Assembly: GCA_020852255.1 (NCBI GenBank)
Contig: JADZBD010000002.1
Coordinates: forward strand, 209,307 to 273,306
From: Bacteroidia bacterium
Lineage (GTDB): Bacteria > Bacteroidota > Bacteroidia > JADZBD01
Direction of reading: 5' to 3'
DNA length: 64,000 nt
In this document: one piece after another, positions 29,569 to 37,634 of the stretch
How the letters are laid out: the number at the start of each line of letters is the position of its first letter
Numbering within the stretch: position 1 is the first letter of the stretch
Position numbers and translations under genes: made by a program
The notes under the pieces: model-generated
What the model was told of the DNA's origin: nothing
What the model saw: only the letters and a program-made list of their open reading frames with translations
The model's database searches: none

Positions 29569-30264
29569 TTACTCCGTCTTTTTTCCTATAAGGTAATCCA
29601 GCGCTACAGAATAATTCAATCCCCAGATATAATCCCAGTACGGATTGGTTACATTGAATTCACGCTGATGCATAAAGAAGGCACCGAATTCGTGCATATT
29701 ATTCAATTTATAGCCGAGGCCTGCACTGAAGCGAACATTTTCATTGATCCGGTTACGAATATTTGTAAAAAGCTCTGCACTGATATACGGTACCAGCTTC
29801 TTCTCTGTATCAAACCGCACCGTGATCTTATTTCTCCATGTAAGGTCGGGTACAACCCCATCCTCCGAAACAAAGACATCTGTATACTGGCTTTGGTACC
29901 GCGACCGTATTGAGAGGTCAAAGGGACCGGCCTTTTTCCTCAGCGCCAGATCAAAGTACCAGCGGTGCCGCTTACTATACGTATCATCCACCCGCCTTTT
30001 ATGAACGAACCGGTAATGAAAGGAAGGTCTCACTAATCCCTTGAGCAACTTATAAGAAACCCCCATATCCGTGAAGTGCGTACCCAGTTCTGAAATATTC
30101 TCATTGAACCGCAGTTCCTCCGTGAGCTCGGCCGAAAGTTCCAGAGAGAAATTATACTCTGCCGTACCCGCCACCCAAAGACCGGCATCCTTTACCTGTG
30201 CGGGGTTTACAAATGGGGTCAGGAAACCCGCCGCCAACAGAACTTTATTCAGATGCTTTCTCAT
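29569..30264 (-). CDS. DUF2490 outer-membrane beta-barrel protein
   Basis: A 231-residue exported protein: signal peptide (about 1-22) then alternating amphipathic strands (FHYRFVHKRRVDD, HRWYFDLALRKK, LSIRSRYQSQYTD, WRNKITVRFDTEKK, NPYWDYIWGLNYSVALDYLIG). This matches DUF2490, predicted barrel proteins of the outer membrane. ATG at 30264 is preferred over 30273. It lies 24 nt after the DUF4956 stop, so it is the last gene of the CotH/VTC locus and may be its outer-membrane part. Confidence 0.75.
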   Translation of the reverse strand: MRKHLNKVLLAAGFLTPFVNPAQVKDAGLWVAGTAEYNFSLELSAELTEELRFNENISELGTHFTDMGVSYKLLKGLVRPSFHYRFVHKRRVDDTYSKRHRWYFDLALRKKAGPFDLSIRSRYQSQYTDVFVSEDGVVPDLTWRNKITVRFDTEKKLVPYISAELFTNIRNRINENVRFSAGLGYKLNNMHEFGAFFMHQREFNVTNPYWDYIWGLNYSVALDYLIGKKTE

Positions 30265-30288
30265 TTTATACATTTCTTTGGCCGTTAC

Positions 30289-31023
30289 TTACTGATAAAA
30301 ATAAACCTTAATCTGAGCCGTATCCCGGAGGTAATCCAACTTCAGGATGGCGATTCTGTGAATGTTCAGTCCTGTGCGCTTCTTAAGGTCTTCAATCAGC
30401 GCCTCACGTGTCTGGGTATTCACCATTTCGATGTTTTCATAATTGATCAGCTGCGTAGATTCCCTCTTAAAGAAAATAGAAGATTCAAGCAGATAGATCG
30501 CAGTAATGATCATCAGATTGATCAACAAAAGTTCAACCGCCGTACCCTTCGCCACGGCGCAGATCAGTCCGATCGCAATCACCACAAAAAGATAAGTCAT
30601 CTCTTTTGCAGTAATTCCTTCCGTGCGGTATCTGAGCATGCTGAAGATTGCAAAGAGACCAAAGGCCGCTCCGAGGGACATATCGACTTTGTTCAGCAGG
30701 AATGTGATCAGAAAAATAACAAGATTGAAAATAAAAAACGTAAACAGAAACTCCGTGTTCCGGTAATTGCGGTAGTAGATAAAACGGACCAGCAGAAAAA
30801 GACACAGTACGTTGATCGCCAGCCTGGAGAAAAACTTTTCATTCAGCTTATCGATGGTAAAATCAAAAAAATCAGCATCCGTTCCCTTTTTCTTCTTTTT
30901 GTCTTCCGTTCCGGGATCGGTTTCAGTGTTCATGTCCGCTTCCTGTGCCACAGCGGAAACAACAGGTCCTGCAAGCATCAGGATCAGTAAGGCTGATTTC
31001 AATATTCTACATACTTTTTCCAT
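30289..31023 (-). CDS. DUF4956 membrane protein (VTC partner family)
   Basis: A 244-residue protein with a signal-like N-terminal helix (about 9-26), a charged lysine-rich linker (KKKKKGTDAD), then about four transmembrane helices between 68 and 180 and a cytoplasmic C-terminal domain ending IKVYFYQ. The block GAAFGLFAIFSMLRYRTEGI is the DUF4956 signature. These proteins are typically encoded next to bacterial VTC-domain proteins, as here (17-nt overlap). They may form a membrane channel or anchor for the polymerase; this is inference. Confidence 0.85.
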   Translation of the reverse strand: MEKVCRILKSALLILMLAGPVVSAVAQEADMNTETDPGTEDKKKKKGTDADFFDFTIDKLNEKFFSRLAINVLCLFLLVRFIYYRNYRNTEFLFTFFIFNLVIFLITFLLNKVDMSLGAAFGLFAIFSMLRYRTEGITAKEMTYLFVVIAIGLICAVAKGTAVELLLINLMIITAIYLLESSIFFKRESTQLINYENIEMVNTQTREALIEDLKKRTGLNIHRIAILKLDYLRDTAQIKVYFYQ

Positions 31024-31768
31024 AAATGACCTTATTGATCCGGCGAAGCCGGGGTTTAAAGTTATTGATTTTTACATTGCTCTGAGTATGAATCACTCCC
31101 AGGCAGTATTTGCTGATAGACCCCTCCCGAAGCCGGCGGTCATGCATCAGCCGGATAAAAGGAGAGGGTGTTGAACGGCTTTGCTTTACTTCGGCGATCA
31201 CCATGTCTGAAAATGACTTTTCCCTTCCCCCGAATCTTACATTCAGATCCACATCCAGCGTGAGCCGCTCCGGTGAATTGTTGTTGACCATCGTAATACG
31301 GGTATAATAGATCCATGCACTCGGACAGAGGGCAGCTGCTTTCAATGGCGAAGCTTCGGCCAGGAAATCAGCACTTCGCCCGCTGATTACTTCCTCGATC
31401 GTCGGACATTTGATCCTCTCCTTAACGGTACGTCCCTTATTGGATTTGAACTTGACTTCAAAAAAACAGAGGTTACTATCTAAGTACTTCCGGCTTCTCA
31501 CCTTATACCGGTTCAGCTTCCCGGCCTGATGGGCATGATACAGGCTGAAACCCTCGGTGTCGTAATATAGCGTTTCGTACCGACCGCCCCGTAACCCGCC
31601 AATCTCCAGTACGCGGTAATGCTTCCGCAGCTGATCCAGGTATTCCGGGAGCATGCTGTTCCTGAAGATAAATTTAGTATCCATGCGATCCATCAGCTTG
31701 ACCGCATCCATCTGCTCCAGCGTTATGGCATCAAAGCCAGAAAGTATGTTATTCAACTCCGCTCTCAC
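31007..31768 (-). CDS. VTC-domain (polyphosphate polymerase-like) protein
   Basis: A 253-residue cytoplasmic protein matching the VTC catalytic domain of yeast Vtc4, which makes polyphosphate from ATP inside a beta-tunnel. The tunnel residues are present: MDRMDTKFIF (about 28-37), YETLYYDT, RYKVRSRKY, FFEVKFKSNKGR, RLTLDVDLNVRF and VIAEVKQS. It overlaps the DUF4956 gene by 17 nt and the upstream repeat gene by 4 nt. The family prediction is firm; whether it makes polyphosphate or modifies another acceptor is unknown. Confidence 0.88.
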   Translation of the reverse strand: MRAELNNILSGFDAITLEQMDAVKLMDRMDTKFIFRNSMLPEYLDQLRKHYRVLEIGGLRGGRYETLYYDTEGFSLYHAHQAGKLNRYKVRSRKYLDSNLCFFEVKFKSNKGRTVKERIKCPTIEEVISGRSADFLAEASPLKAAALCPSAWIYYTRITMVNNNSPERLTLDVDLNVRFGGREKSFSDMVIAEVKQSRSTPSPFIRLMHDRRLREGSISKYCLGVIHTQSNVKINNFKPRLRRINKVIYGKSM

Positions 31769-32334
31769 TTGCCGTAGATGTACTTTTTAACAGATTCCAG
31801 TACGTTATCCGCATTGTATGTTTTACGCTCTACCCTTAAGCCGTTTTTGTCGTAGGTAAATACATGTTTCTTCTGAAGCTTACCTGCTCCGTCGTAATGG
31901 TTTTCAGCTGTTTTCTCGCCCCTGCTGTTATAGGTAAAAACAATCTTTTTCAGTACAGCTCCTTTGCCGTCATACTCCACTTCCTCTGTCTTTTCACCTC
32001 CGGAATTATATTTCCACGTTACTTTTCGGTCAATCTTCTTTTCCGGAATGTATTCATATTCTTCTGTCATATTACCGGATCCGTCAAATTTTGCAGTTCT
32101 CTTCTTTTTCACAGAGCCATCGCGGTTATACTGTACCTCCTCTATCACATTTCCCGATTTGTCAAAAGAGGTTGTGGATTCCTTCCAGGTAACATCCTTC
32201 CCGTTCTCAGTGCTCACCATGTATTCGGTGGTGATCCTGATACCGTTGGATTTTACCTGTTTCTTCGTTTGTGCCGGAACCGAGAGCCAGATAATTACCG
32301 GAACAATGCTCAGTAAATATTTCATACGCATCAT
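31765..32334 (-). CDS. Secreted protein with YD/RHS-like tandem repeats
   Basis: A 189-residue exported protein: signal peptide (about 1-22, ending SVPAQ) followed by about seven short beta repeats of the form (K/E)xxYDxxGxxxxKxxFTYNxxGEKTEExxY. Such repeats are common in Bacteroidota surface proteins and may bind glycans or charged polymers. The mature protein is rich in Lys and Glu. It is sandwiched between the VTC gene and a lipoprotein gene with overlaps on both sides, so it belongs to the locus. ATG at 32325 is an alternative start. Confidence 0.7.
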   Translation of the reverse strand: MMRMKYLLSIVPVIIWLSVPAQTKKQVKSNGIRITTEYMVSTENGKDVTWKESTTSFDKSGNVIEEVQYNRDGSVKKKRTAKFDGSGNMTEEYEYIPEKKIDRKVTWKYNSGGEKTEEVEYDGKGAVLKKIVFTYNSRGEKTAENHYDGAGKLQKKHVFTYDKNGLRVERKTYNADNVLESVKKYIYGK

Positions 32335-32738
32335 TTGAAAATATTAAAGGTGCCTGCGTCCACTTGCTGCTTCTTGCCGCTGATCTCAATCTCCTTCAGA
32401 ATAGTTACGTTATTGGGATTGGATGCGGGTGGTACCGAATCCTCCGAATAAATAAATACTTTGTACTTACCCGGCCGCAGGTATTTAAATTCAAACACCC
32501 CGTCGTAACTGCTCCGGATCCGCTCCGAAAACGAAATATCATCGCCATAGATCAGGTACACCTCTTCGTCGTATCCGTCGTACTGCGCCTGCACCTGAAA
32601 CGTGGCATTGATATCCTTAACCCAAACATGTCCTTTTATAGAAGAATTCCCTCCTTCCCCCGGGCCCTTGCTGCAAGAGCTGAGAAAAAAAACGCTGCAG
32701 AAAATAAGGAATGTAAGCGATGGGCAAATACTCTTCAT
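32331..32738 (-). CDS. Small lipoprotein with beta-sandwich (carboxypeptidase-regulatory-like) domain
   Basis: A 135-residue protein with a clear lipobox (FFLSSC, Cys at about 22) and a single Ig-like domain: SIKGHVWVKDINATFQVQAQY, then YDGVFEFKYLRPGKYKVFIYSED, typical of carboxypeptidase-regulatory/SpaA-like folds. It is expected to be anchored in the inner or outer membrane. It lies 3 nt after the CotH gene stop and overlaps the repeat-protein gene by 4 nt. Confidence 0.75.
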   Translation of the reverse strand: MKSICPSLTFLIFCSVFFLSSCSKGPGEGGNSSIKGHVWVKDINATFQVQAQYDGYDEEVYLIYGDDISFSERIRSSYDGVFEFKYLRPGKYKVFIYSEDSVPPASNPNNVTILKEIEISGKKQQVDAGTFNIFK

Positions 32739-32741
32739 AGT

Positions 32742-35700
32742 TTAGTTTTTATCAGTGTAAATAATCCGTATTGTTTCGGTATGTTCTCCGTTGGTCATCC
32801 GGATGAAATAAAGTCCTGCGCTCAATCCCCACTGCGAAGGAAAGAAACTGAGGCGGTATTCTCCTGCCGGTGTAATGTGATCATTACTCAGTATATCTCC
32901 TGCTCTTCGACCCAGGATATCATATACCACCACTTCCACCTGAGCATCCTCCGGAACCGTTATAAGCACATTAAATTCATGATCGGAAGGATTAGGATAA
33001 ACCTGCATGTCCACGTTGATTGGCAGATAATGCGCCGTAAAAGATTCATTGGAAGGGACGTTGAGCCGGATCGCATTTGTGTAAACCGGAGAGGAAAGCT
33101 GTACATCGGAAGTCCAGTGCGAAAATTTATACCCCGGGAATGCCGCTGCCGTCATACTTACAGGAACTCCGTTGAAATAAATACCCGCCCAGGGAAAAGA
33201 ATCAGGATAAATTGTGTTCATCAGAATGTTTCCTGCGCCGGCCGGATCAACATCCAGTGTCACACGCACCTGATTCGGCAGGTTCCATTCCTGCTGTACC
33301 CAGTACCGTGCATATTGAGGCCGGTCATTAATGAAATCCATCAGCAGTGAAAACTCAAATGCCCAGTCGGATGAATCAAGGCAGGGACCCATGCCGAAGG
33401 GATTGGAATTCGGAATTCCCCACAGGGAAAAGTGCCGGGGCATTTCCGGAGCCATATTATCGTAGATCTTCTGCGCAAGGCTGCCCAGATTTAGCGGATG
33501 AAAAGTGGTATTCATAAGATCCGCATACCGGTTAACAAAATAGTTTCTGTATTCCGTATTACGCAATAGAGATTCCATTATGGTAGAATGCGGGTTCGGA
33601 TAATACATTGAATTGGTATCAGAATTCGTGACATACGGCAGAAGATTGTCCGTTACCAGACTGAACAATCCCAGGCCTCCGTCCGTATCCCAAAGTATAT
33701 ATCTCCAGGGCGACGGAGGGTTTGTTTTCCGCCAAAATTTGATGTTGTTTCCCAACCAGTCCGGATTGGAATAATAGATCTCCGCGGTGAAATAATCCGT
33801 TATATTTTGAATATCCAGAAGGTGCCGTGCCGAATCGTAATTTGATGAAAGTGTCAGATCGTTCAGCCGAAACCACTCCACCATTGAAAGGAATTGCTTG
33901 TTATCACCGGTCATTATATCTCCGTGAAACCGCAACAGGTCCATCTCATCCTTATCCACACCGTGATTTTCCTCTATATAATATTCATCCTGTCTTTCGC
34001 GAATTTCAAACACCCCGAAATAATCACCGTTCAGAAATACCACGCAGCTGGTATGATCCATGATGTCGTTATACGTATTACGAACCGCCCGCTGCATCAA
34101 CCCATCACGCATGTGTGTGGTATTCCAGTCGATCCCCGCATTACGCAAATTGAAGGCCTTAAGTTCCTTCAGTTGCTTTTCCGGGAACAGATTAAAGGGA
34201 ATACGGGTCTGGCCGTAATCATCGTTTGCGACAACGCGGAAGGAACGTTGAGGAAAACCCTTCGACCAATTGCCGTGTATCTTCAGCACATTATCCAGCT
34301 CAAAGCCATGATTCCCGGTTTTGTCAAAATACTCCGCATGTCCGGGCTTCTCCCATCCTTGCCAGAAATTAGCTCCGTAAAAGGGAAAAGTGGTATCGGC
34401 ATTCGGTCCCATAACATAGATTCCGGTGTTCCAATCCCAGATATCCTGGGGATTGGCAGAGAGTGAAACCACCGGAAGCGTAATATTCTCGTTTATGAAA
34501 TAAGTATTTGTTATGGTTTTTCCCGGCAGGATCTGGGAATTCGAAGAAAACAAACGTGCCCTGATAACCCGTGTGGAGTCTACGGAGAGCGGAACGCTGA
34601 ATATCGGAGAAGATGCTTTGGGAATGCTGCCGTCGGTTGTATAACGAATCACACCGTTGGTGCCACCGGTAGCAAAAACCGATTGACTCCCCTGGTAAAA
34701 GCCGGGTGCCAGTGTAAACTCCGGAACTCCCGCATAACCTGTATACCATGCCGAAGTGGCATTCGTGTCACCCGGTGTTGGTATGGCAAACAGAACCCAG
34801 TCAGGAGAAGCATCGGTTTTCCTTCCCCTGGAATTGTCCGGGTGCATTTCCTCCACCAGCTTCATATCTGAAATATTTCCATTCGCATCGTACAGTGTTA
34901 AGGTGAATCCGGTACTGGGAAGGGAGAAACTGGTGTGCAGGTTAGAGCTGGCAGGAATGGGAAAGTATTCTATCGTTGTATCCGACTTGCCTGTTAAAAA
35001 GTTGACGATGGCTGTGAGATCAGAAGAAAAGAAGTCCGTGTTGTGCACTTGAACTCCGAACACATTAAGTCCCGGTCTAATGGCAGTTCGCATCAATTCC
35101 TTGGAGAGAATAAACCCCGCCGAATACTGCCCCGTTTGATATAAAGTGGCCTCGTGCTCCTCATAGGCCAGATCCGTATGATACGGCGGCACACCCTGAA
35201 TGCCCACATTATACCGTCCGAGTTCAACACCGTTAAGATAGGTGACGAAACCGTCGTCAAAATCCATCAAACAGAGTCCGGCGGAAATCTTGGATGTATC
35301 CGATATGTTGAATGTCATCCGCATATAAAGCGAAAAAGTATTGCCGATCACGGTGGTATCATCGCCGTCTCCGTAACCAATCCCGCCCGCTCCTGTAAGC
35401 CAGGAAGCATCATTAAAAGACGGCTTCCTCCAGTTCGTATCCGGCTCGGAAGTTCCCACCCAGTATTTCCAGGGAAAGTTGTAGTACACGGGAACTTCCC
35501 AATGATTAAGAACAGTTCGCCGGTTCTTTTCAGAGGCAAAGATCAGCATGTGCTGGTAGGGTTTGATTATGATGGATGGAAAAACCCAGGTTGAGTTTTT
35601 TCCGTCATATAACGTAAGCGAATAATTCCCCAGATCCACCGGTTGACTGCTGCTATTATATAGTTCTATCCAATCTTCAAAATCTCCGTCCTCATCTGCC

Positions 35701-35804
35701 ACAGTGCTTACATTGGACCCGGAAACTTCATTGATAATGACCTGCGCCCGAGTCGTATAACTCCATATGATGGCAAATAACAAAAAAGGTAGTCGGAACC
35801 GCAT
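32742..35804 (-). CDS. CotH-kinase-domain surface protein with lamin-tail domain and T9SS type A sorting domain
   Basis: A 1020-residue exported protein. Order: signal peptide (1-20), lamin-tail domain (about 21-130, VIINEVSGSN..DWIELYN), a sugar-binding-like region, a chitobiase/FN3-like domain (about 360-430, RYTTDGSIPKASSPIF), CotH kinase domain (about 440-830, with NVLKIHGNWSKGFPQRSFRV, VVFLNGDYFGVFEIRERQDEYY and the metal-binding YILWDTDGGLGL), an InlB-B-like repeat (about 850-935), and a C-terminal T9SS type A domain (VYPNPSDHEFNV..GLYFIRM). CotH proteins are atypical secreted kinases in spore coats; the target here is unknown. Confidence 0.88.
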   Translation of the reverse strand: MRFRLPFLLFAIIWSYTTRAQVIINEVSGSNVSTVADEDGDFEDWIELYNSSSQPVDLGNYSLTLYDGKNSTWVFPSIIIKPYQHMLIFASEKNRRTVLNHWEVPVYYNFPWKYWVGTSEPDTNWRKPSFNDASWLTGAGGIGYGDGDDTTVIGNTFSLYMRMTFNISDTSKISAGLCLMDFDDGFVTYLNGVELGRYNVGIQGVPPYHTDLAYEEHEATLYQTGQYSAGFILSKELMRTAIRPGLNVFGVQVHNTDFFSSDLTAIVNFLTGKSDTTIEYFPIPASSNLHTSFSLPSTGFTLTLYDANGNISDMKLVEEMHPDNSRGRKTDASPDWVLFAIPTPGDTNATSAWYTGYAGVPEFTLAPGFYQGSQSVFATGGTNGVIRYTTDGSIPKASSPIFSVPLSVDSTRVIRARLFSSNSQILPGKTITNTYFINENITLPVVSLSANPQDIWDWNTGIYVMGPNADTTFPFYGANFWQGWEKPGHAEYFDKTGNHGFELDNVLKIHGNWSKGFPQRSFRVVANDDYGQTRIPFNLFPEKQLKELKAFNLRNAGIDWNTTHMRDGLMQRAVRNTYNDIMDHTSCVVFLNGDYFGVFEIRERQDEYYIEENHGVDKDEMDLLRFHGDIMTGDNKQFLSMVEWFRLNDLTLSSNYDSARHLLDIQNITDYFTAEIYYSNPDWLGNNIKFWRKTNPPSPWRYILWDTDGGLGLFSLVTDNLLPYVTNSDTNSMYYPNPHSTIMESLLRNTEYRNYFVNRYADLMNTTFHPLNLGSLAQKIYDNMAPEMPRHFSLWGIPNSNPFGMGPCLDSSDWAFEFSLLMDFINDRPQYARYWVQQEWNLPNQVRVTLDVDPAGAGNILMNTIYPDSFPWAGIYFNGVPVSMTAAAFPGYKFSHWTSDVQLSSPVYTNAIRLNVPSNESFTAHYLPINVDMQVYPNPSDHEFNVLITVPEDAQVEVVVYDILGRRAGDILSNDHITPAGEYRLSFFPSQWGLSAGLYFIRMTNGEHTETIRIIYTDKN

Positions 35805-35845
35805 GGGACTTTGTTAAAGTAAATTTAACAAAAATCCCGGCATAA

Positions 35846-37369
35846 TTATCTCGTAATCACCAATTTTTGAACCCATTGAGTGTTTATTCTCAAGTAATAA
35901 ACCCCGGCGGGGAGTGCAGCCAGATCAAGTGAGGCCTCCCGCTGTTGAATGTCCGTTAGCCGGTAAACAGTTTGACCGCTGATGGAGCTTATCTCTACAG
36001 ATTGAATGAGCTCTTCTGCAGATCGGATCGTAAGCTGCCCGGCAGAAGGATTGGGAGCGAGCAGAAATTTTTGTTCAACGTCCTCATCCTGCATACCCAG
36101 GAAACAACCATAGGCCGCCAGCGAAGTGATGAGGGAATTGCGCCGGTTAGTGATAAAGGACTTGAGTCCCGGAAAATTTCCTCCACCTGGGCCGACAATA
36201 TTAAGGTTCATAATCTGATTATCTTCAAAATTCTGATTGGAGTATAATTTATTCGGATCCGCATACACATCCGTCCTGATGCGGTTCGCCAGGCTGTCGA
36301 TTTTCGGATCCAGATTTGAATTACTGAATTTATCCGGCTGGATAAAATCACATATCTCATACATCAGTTGTTGAAGACTGGCCGGATCCTGCAGGAGCCG
36401 GTTGCAGACCGGACGGTTACTGGGACTGCTGAGGTATAACGGACTGAGGTTCTCCAGCTGTGAGATGGTCATCATTTGTGCAAAAACACCAAATGCTTCA
36501 TTCATATCATACAGGATGAATTGCCAGCGGTAATCCAGGGAATCATGGTAGATAAAATAGTTATGTCCGCTGCCGATGTATGAATCCAGATTGGCAAAAA
36601 CGTTGCAAGCCGCCCACGAACGGAAAAAGAGTGCCGTATTGAAATGATTATCCAGGGAATCTCTCAGGTCAGTAAGTGTTGTGTTATTGATTTTATCAAT
36701 GAGCTGCACCAGATCGGTCCAGTCGTTCTGTGTCTCATTGGTTTTTAGTTCATATTTTGAATAGTACGAAGAAGGGCTATTGTTGATCCATTTCAGGTCT
36801 CCGCTGGGATCACCCTTGAAAAGGTTACCTTTTTTATCATCGAACCAACCGTCCACAAAATCCTTATTCACCTCCTCTGTCAGCGTAAAGAAACCCCAAA
36901 GGGTGTTATTGTAATAGACTTTGGCATACGTTACACGAGGGGCAGGAATTCCGTTTTTCACGCACAGGTCAGACATGATCTTCTCCCTCATATAGGTAGG
37001 ATCCTTGAAGCCATTTCCGAGGTTGAATTTATTAATGTCGTCCAGATCCTGGGCGCTGATGATATAGTCCAGATCCACTTTCATTGATTTCTTCACGCTG
37101 GGATTGTTGTATGAAGAATTTCCTTTGAATTTGAGTCCGATGGAATCAAAGGCTACGCCGTCGAAGACCATATTGCAAACGTAATAGGTGTCGTTCACAT
37201 AGGATGCCGTAAGAGAGTCGTAAAAGGCCGGATGATAGAAATTAAAACGGATCTCATGGATAAAATCAGATCCAAAGAGCGTATCCCCATCATTATTATA
37301 CTGCTGCGCGCGGATACCGGTTCCCGCCGCGAACAGGAGAAGAACGAGAAAAAGAAAACGTGATTTCAT
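35846..37369 (-). CDS. Second CotH-kinase-domain protein with T9SS type A sorting domain
   Basis: A 507-residue exported protein: signal peptide (1-21, MKSRFLFLVLLLFAAGTGIRA), CotH domain (about 25-400, with GLKFKGNSSYNNPSVKKSMKVD, KVYYNNTLWGFFTLTEEVNKDF and the metal-binding block FILYDMNEAFGVF), and a T9SS type A domain at the end (LAPNPSAGQLTIRS..GVYYLRINTQWVQKLVI). ATG at 37369 is chosen over 37411 because it begins a clean signal peptide. It precedes the larger CotH gene by 41 nt, so two different exported kinases appear to share one locus. Confidence 0.87.
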   Translation of the reverse strand: MKSRFLFLVLLLFAAGTGIRAQQYNNDGDTLFGSDFIHEIRFNFYHPAFYDSLTASYVNDTYYVCNMVFDGVAFDSIGLKFKGNSSYNNPSVKKSMKVDLDYIISAQDLDDINKFNLGNGFKDPTYMREKIMSDLCVKNGIPAPRVTYAKVYYNNTLWGFFTLTEEVNKDFVDGWFDDKKGNLFKGDPSGDLKWINNSPSSYYSKYELKTNETQNDWTDLVQLIDKINNTTLTDLRDSLDNHFNTALFFRSWAACNVFANLDSYIGSGHNYFIYHDSLDYRWQFILYDMNEAFGVFAQMMTISQLENLSPLYLSSPSNRPVCNRLLQDPASLQQLMYEICDFIQPDKFSNSNLDPKIDSLANRIRTDVYADPNKLYSNQNFEDNQIMNLNIVGPGGGNFPGLKSFITNRRNSLITSLAAYGCFLGMQDEDVEQKFLLAPNPSAGQLTIRSAEELIQSVEISSISGQTVYRLTDIQQREASLDLAALPAGVYYLRINTQWVQKLVITR

Positions 37370-37394: not shown

Positions 37395-37634
37395 TCACAT
37401 TTGTTTAACATAAGATACTAATTCTTTTTGCACCGGATTTCCCTGCGTATGATTTTCCTCCCGGTTGGCCTCCACTTCCAGGAGTCGTTGCCGGATTTCG
37501 CGTATCACTTCCACCTGAGACCGGTGACGAAATTGCTCATCAGCAGGCTTATCAGCCAGAATACAAATCATTATCTGTATTATCATGGTTTTAGCATTTA
37601 GTACAAAACTCAGCAACCGGATATAACCTTTCAA
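37395..37634 (-). CDS. Possible small protein upstream of the CotH genes
   Basis: An open frame of 79 codons; the best start is ATG at 37586, giving 63 residues (MIIQIMICILADKPADEQF..). The N-terminus is hydrophobic and the rest charged and helical (VEVIREIRQRLLEVEANREEN). I recognise no family. Its codon choice resembles neighbouring genes and it ends 26 nt before the CotH start, so it could be a real small gene leading the locus. Without homologues it remains uncertain. Confidence 0.4.
   Translation of the reverse strand: MKGYIRLLSFVLNAKTMIIQIMICILADKPADEQFRHRSQVEVIREIRQRLLEVEANREENHTQGNPVQKELVSYVKQM

Follow-up and report, generated by a model that had tools for sequence, protein, structure and literature searches.

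Gene content of the locus

We analyzed a 64,000-nucleotide stretch of a Bacteroidia bacterium genome (assembly GCA_020852255.1, contig JADZBD010000002.1, positions 209,307 to 273,306 of the forward strand), referred to as the window. The subject of this study is a gene cluster in which a VTC-type enzyme, a DUF4956 membrane protein and a DUF2490 outer-membrane barrel stand next to two CotH-type kinases. The original prediction, made from the sequence alone, had described seven close-packed genes on the minus strand. All seven were found by an open reading frame (ORF) check of the window, tightly packed at 29569-37369. Their spacings are 41, 3, -4, -4, -17 and 15 nt in the 5' to 3' direction of transcription, giving gaps and overlaps of -17 to 41 nt. 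In this direction, the genes are as follows (T9SS, type IX secretion system):

35846..37369, minus strand: CotH1, exported CotH-type atypical kinase with a T9SS type A sorting tail (PF08757, 3.4e-51; Por_Secre_tail, 1.8e-10)
32742..35804, minus strand: CotH2, exported protein with LTD, CHB_HEX_C, CotH and T9SS-tail parts (Pfam CotH, 2.7e-36; LTD; CHB_HEX_C_1; Por_Secre_tail)
32331..32738, minus strand: small lipoprotein with a transthyretin/carboxypeptidase-regulatory-like fold (LSSC lipobox; family conserved at the locus)
31765..32334, minus strand: secreted Lys-rich YD/RHS-like repeat protein (signal peptide, weak YD/RHS-type repeats; family conserved at the locus)
31007..31768, minus strand: VTC-type triphosphate tunnel enzyme, predicted polyphosphate polymerase (PF09359, 5.8e-26; GTG start)
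30289..31023, minus strand: DUF4956 inner-membrane protein (PF16316, 2.6e-52; signal-like N-terminal extension)
29569..30273, minus strand: DUF2490 outer-membrane beta-barrel of a VTC-linked subfamily (PF10677, 2.5e-19)

The CotH1 ORF has an alternative upstream ATG at 37411. Pfam matches, together with the lipobox and signal peptide, agreed with the gene contents claimed earlier, namely two CotH proteins with T9SS signals, a lipoprotein, a repeat protein, VTC, DUF4956 and DUF2490. The predicted locations are likewise in line with the proposal that the parts span every layer of the envelope.

Recurrence of the gene set

We determined the occurrence of the genes in a phylum sample of 395 genomes. 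DUF4956 was present in 88 and VTC in 57 of them, and all 57 VTC genomes contained DUF4956. For 61 of the 65 VTC matches, DUF4956 lay within 1 kb on the same strand; for three it lay within 3 kb, and one match was a fragment. VTC and DUF4956 are the core of the set, and the strict dependence of VTC on DUF4956 is a new feature.

The DUF4956 matches split into two score groups, types I and II. Among the 22 type I proteins (window included), VTC accompanied 20, DUF2490 was found within about 2.4 kb of 16, and CotH within 8 kb of seven. With a limit of 6 kb from DUF4956, CotH was found at 6/21 type I loci of the phylum sample. Type II loci often carry a 354-aa gene directly before VTC; the conserved product is probably an HlyD-like inner-membrane adaptor (L055, L058, L059, L061, L064, L065, L067, L068, L070). 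A porin was first suspected here, but the HlyD-like adaptor is more likely, and it may serve as another kind of bridge across the periplasm.

A scan of named genomes yielded 80 loci, with a DUF4956 ORF called in 79. These loci are the best matches of the type I profile, so that the following fractions hold for close relatives and cannot be extended to bacteria in general. Within 6 kb of DUF4956, VTC was found at 71/79, DUF2490 at 57/79, a CotH domain at 36/79, the lipoprotein at 33/79 and the repeat protein at 30/79. An initial CotH count of 51/79 was inflated by tail and LTD domains and was replaced by this domain-only value. The gene-neighborhood search suggested with the original prediction returned nine named-genome loci that keep the full window order of CotH, lipoprotein, repeat protein, VTC, DUF4956 and DUF2490 (L111, L122, L125, L128, L129, L139, L144, L155, L157). 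A tenth candidate (L103) was left out, because its short CotH-like fragment fails the CotH domain test. The gene layout is not due to chance, and the recurrence supports a functional set.

Variants of the core were also seen. A VTC-less form (L050 at 8863, L051 at 11262, L146, L178) has DUF4956 followed by a gene of 335-341 aa and then by one of 473-480 aa; in L051, the former is weakly CotH-like and the latter is a metallophosphatase. T9SS-tailed arylsulfotransferase-family proteins stand beside VTC-DUF4956 at L041 (13599-16523) and L052 (12462-14162), which suggests sulfo- or phospho-chemistry at the surface.

The VTC enzyme and its membrane partner

The VTC protein of 253 aa scored 91.9 bits against a curated Pfam cut-off of 23. 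It consists of the VTC domain alone; an SPX domain, a membrane domain and a signal peptide were not found in it. A single-sequence PDB search with the window protein gave no match, and the family profile matched yeast Vtc4 (3g3q) with an E value of 3.8e-16. Window residues K32, R91, R93, K106, R157, R168, E193 and K220 correspond to Vtc4 K200, R264, R266, K281, R361, R373, E426 and K458, respectively, where the K220/K458 pairing was taken from the HMMER alignment of the VTC family profile. In Vtc4, these residues belong to the tunnel. All eight are conserved in 90-99 of the 99 VTC homologues. Vtc4 R253 is replaced by H80 in the window and by His in 88/99 homologues; altogether, 9/10 checked Vtc4 positions are kept. 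The yeast structure was obtained with an inactive Vtc4 mutant, R264A/R266A/E426N (PMC9911596).

The tunnel Arg, Lys and Glu residues described earlier are present as Vtc4 equivalents, R253 excepted, and are kept in nearly all homologues. Concerning the proposed synthesis of polyphosphate or a phosphoryl product, the kept residues favor a polyphosphate-type polymerase. The tunnel superfamily has several activities, and together with the exchange of R253 for His, this would leave room for a different triphosphate-tunnel enzyme, such as a triphosphatase or a nucleotide-product cyclase, making no polymer. The first-strand signature RxxxKY is, however, the same as in Vtc4 and differs from the ExExK of CYTH enzymes; with nine of the ten Vtc4 positions kept, we regard such an activity as improbable. 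At one locus (L062, 7799-10135), the VTC gene is a single 778-aa ORF, possibly a fusion to another domain.

The model of the DUF4956 protein (pLDDT 84) displayed four to five transmembrane (TM) helices and a C-terminal domain, for which ACT-containing proteins were among the weak fold matches. Four residues (G122, R131, R133, F146) do not vary across types I and II. In the model, R131 and R133 would sit where a TM helix meets the cytoplasm, provided that the C-terminal domain is cytoplasmic. Weak MgtC (PF02308) matches were obtained for 13/37 relatives (best 1.2e-6), and a profile comparison with MgtC reached P 1.4e-4 with a wider alignment and was unsuccessful with the type I alignment. This likeness to MgtC is a weak similarity in the TM region; the window protein had no match to PF02308, its sole Pfam family being DUF4956. 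The streptococcal homologue SIR_1592 has likewise been described as an MgtC-like TM region with ACT (PMC12345266).

The pair resembles the yeast VTC complex (Vtc1/Vtc3/Vtc4) in having a tunnel-fold polymerase with the same catalytic residues and an adjacent membrane partner, with conserved basic residues that may lie near the cytoplasmic face. In contrast to yeast, no SPX domain was found in the operon enzyme, the membrane part is encoded apart, as a DUF4956 protein that looks unrelated, and the operon adds an outer-membrane barrel and secreted CotH proteins.

CotH proteins and the companion families

CotH1 has D262 and D288 at the aligned positions of D224 and D247 in Bacillus cereus CotH (5jd9), and CotH2 has D682 and D706 at both catalytic-type positions. 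We take these two Asp residues to be the catalytic and metal-binding residues of CotH kinases; they are kept in 47/52 and 50/52 homologues. Both proteins carry a Por_Secre_tail, and because the genome encodes SprA, their export through T9SS is plausible. They share with the Bacillus spore-coat kinase the CotH domain and both catalytic-type Asp residues, but differ from it in the T9SS export, in the extra LTD/CHB domains and in the lack of a spore coat.

The search of this 3.3 Mb genome (G000) gave 11 CotH matches; therefore, most of its CotH proteins are not tied to the operon. CotH is an optional partner and not the core of the gene set. The number of matches points to a CotH expansion, as most relatives searched had 0 to 6. 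These 11 matches, and the occurrence of CotH near fewer than half of the loci, would suit an operon of convenience, where VTC and DUF4956 cooperate and CotH, the lipoprotein, the repeat protein and the barrel are merely co-transcribed. Against such an arrangement, the whole order is kept in nine loci, and an unrelated porin fills the barrel's slot elsewhere (see below); we give it very little credence.

The lipoprotein and the repeat protein are two conserved companion families, the window members of which have no Pfam model above threshold; they are a further new feature. In the lipoprotein family, C22 and GxGG are invariant in 25 homologues, and all Pfam matches of the window member were sub-threshold. 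The repeat protein has 30 homologues, and some members of its family showed weak RHS/MORN_2 matches.

The outer-membrane slot

The DUF2490 protein was modeled as a barrel (pLDDT 86.5), with 11 strands listed. NanC was its best PDB profile match (E 0.0065) and gave the highest TM-scores among the fold matches listed (0.48/0.54). Both are weak matches to the KdgM/NanC acidic-sugar porins. Barrels of the NanC/KdgM type have 12 strands and are anion-selective. In a tree, the VTC-linked DUF2490 proteins grouped apart from the unlinked copies with a support of 1.0. R88 marks the linked group (15/16 versus 0/21 unlinked), and K/R149 is enriched in it. R55, R147, R181 and E167 were also considered as specific to the linked group and were rejected, being family-wide. 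In genus g61 (L038, L040, L046), DUF2490 stands before VTC and not after DUF4956, with ORFs overlapping in crude gene calls. The DUF4956-DUF2490 pair BT3498-BT3499 of B. thetaiotaomicron has negative fold changes in an iron-dependent stimulon table (PMC10434189).

The slot right after DUF4956 varies by taxon, which is a new lead. DUF2490 fills it in Bacteroidota. At four of the 11 gammaproteobacterial loci examined (Thioploca L141, Litorirhabdus L165, Marinobacter L169, G501 L196), it holds a Porin_O_P protein, with E values of 2e-70 to 3e-39 and a gap to DUF4956 of about -11 to +60 nt. The slot porin is the sole Porin_O_P in three of these four genomes. For the L141 porin, alignments to OprP and OprO gave values of about 1e-36; in these other diderms, the predicted barrel is replaced by an OprP-family porin. 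The DUF2490 barrel of the window is different from OprP/OprO and smaller, and no match to Porin_O_P (PF07396) was obtained in this genome. At two Chloroflexota loci, no barrel was detected, and CotH comes directly after DUF4956.

Relation to pel-linked genes

Association of VTC, DUF4956 and CotH had been presented as a known neighborhood theme with no experimentally defined function. CotH, a polyphosphate polymerase and DUF4956 indeed adjoin Gram-positive pel operons (PMC7112168), but CotH is not at the core of the theme, given the counts of 36/79 named and 6/21 type I loci. The second statement needs correction: Streptococcus intermedius mutants lacking either of two genes next to pel, SIR_1592 (DUF4956) or SIR_1594 (CotH), showed altered Pel levels and aggregation (PMC12345266). 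The pel block (CotH-polyphosphate polymerase-DUF4956-DUF4832; PMC7112168, PMC12345266) and the operon share CotH, VTC and DUF4956 side by side. The operon differs in the added outer-membrane barrel, lipoprotein and repeat protein, in the T9SS tails of its CotH proteins, and in that no pel genes were found. CotH/VTC/DUF4956 synteny outside the Pel locus was not found in the streptococcal study (PMC12345266); here, pel-free loci with the trio were found in Bacteroidota, gammaproteobacteria and Chloroflexota, which is a new feature. The gene set is real, recurring and partly known.

These precedents raise the question of whether the set acts on a surface polysaccharide or matrix, by regulation or modification, its phosphate chemistry serving the CotH phosphorylation of matrix proteins or glycans. 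The adjacency to pel, the deletion phenotypes, and ASST, Cthe_2159 or CBM-like neighbors at some loci fit this idea. The scanned ORFs flanking the operon speak otherwise. Those identified were mostly housekeeping genes with no common theme, matching a FoF1-type ATP synthase-family protein, RibF, NamZ, an FtsX-type permease, SRAP, cytidine deaminase, PDH (pyruvate dehydrogenase) E1 and PALP, and they included no identified gene for the synthesis of Pel or another polysaccharide. Most of the annotated loci compared showed no such gene either, and among the glycan genes seen, none follows VTC-DUF4956 as closely as the outer-membrane slot does. A matrix role is unlikely in our view, though it deserves consideration.

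A candidate trans-envelope pathway

With a probability somewhat short of even, we propose that the operon encodes a trans-envelope phosphate-polymer pathway that makes polyphosphate, passes it outward and ends with CotH at the surface. In this scheme, derived from gene content and predicted locations, cytoplasmic VTC would build polyphosphate from the gamma-phosphate of ATP. As the obligate partner of VTC in the genomes, DUF4956 would be the inner-membrane conduit or gate and regulator, in the role of the TM part of yeast VTC. The polymer would cross the outer membrane through the DUF2490 barrel, and at the surface, the lipoprotein, the repeat protein and both T9SS-exported CotH proteins may act on or with it. 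The kept tunnel residues, the VTC-DUF4956 pairing, the nearness of DUF2490, the porins in the slot after DUF4956, the invariant R131 and R133, and phosphate genes adjoining a few loci (listed below) all favor this scheme. A precedent is the yeast VTC complex, which couples polyphosphate synthesis to membrane translocation (PMC9911596). We infer polyphosphate as the product, its outward movement, and its use or binding by CotH; the direction is read from CotH being secreted and from the lipoprotein partner at the surface. Since ppk1 is also present in this genome, the second polymerase suggests a job separate from general storage.

Several observations weigh against this pathway. CotH, the lipoprotein and the repeat protein are absent from many loci. 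A more positive lumen was expected for VTC-linked DUF2490, but the opposite was found: linked lumens have a net charge of +4 versus +7.5 for unlinked ones, and the window barrel has +2. The lumen charge therefore lends no support to a special polyanion pore. The OprP phosphate-site residues are kept only in part in the linked porins, and not all Porin_O_P members are phosphate porins, ExtI with its few OprP-site residues being one exception (PMC5877670). Owing to these three points, the cargo cannot be read from the barrels. Furthermore, no aggregation change was reported for deletion of the pel-side VTC in S. intermedius, unlike for its DUF4956 and CotH neighbors (PMC12345266).

The opposite direction has to be weighed as well, because OprP-family porins usually serve uptake. 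The barrel or porin would then import phosphate or short polyphosphates, DUF4956 would regulate or transport at the inner membrane, VTC would bank polyphosphate, and CotH would phosphorylate or scavenge at the surface. OprP and OprO serve uptake during phosphate starvation (PMC9769906), and DUF4956 is distantly MgtC-like. Phosphate genes also stand beside a few loci: L118 adjoins Pst, PhoU, PiT and one weak Porin_O_P, and PiT adjoins L152, L154, L177 and L191; these links are few, and are observed counts taken without a formal background for PiT or Pst. Storage, however, is already covered by ppk1 in this genome, and the Chloroflexota keep a secreted CotH with VTC-DUF4956 where no barrel was detected, which points outward. 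Upstream of the four gammaproteobacterial loci with a slot porin, a scan allowing up to 3 mismatches detected no Pho box, save a poor far-upstream match in L141, and was uninformative. On balance, uptake and storage appear unlikely, with some weight left to them.

Within the outward pathway, a more specific form would be a polyphosphate secretion machine, in which VTC-DUF4956 and an interchangeable barrel supply surface polyphosphate as the phosphoryl donor to secreted CotH kinases that cannot reach cytoplasmic ATP. We hold this version to be rather unlikely as it stands.

The pel-free occurrences widen the context of the pel-linked trio known from streptococci. The strict VTC-DUF4956 pairing, together with a channel slot that varies by taxon, provides a testable model of polyphosphate export or trans-envelope phosphate handling. 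This model bears on the source of the phosphoryl donor for extracytoplasmic CotH kinases, and on the roles of DUF4956 and DUF2490.

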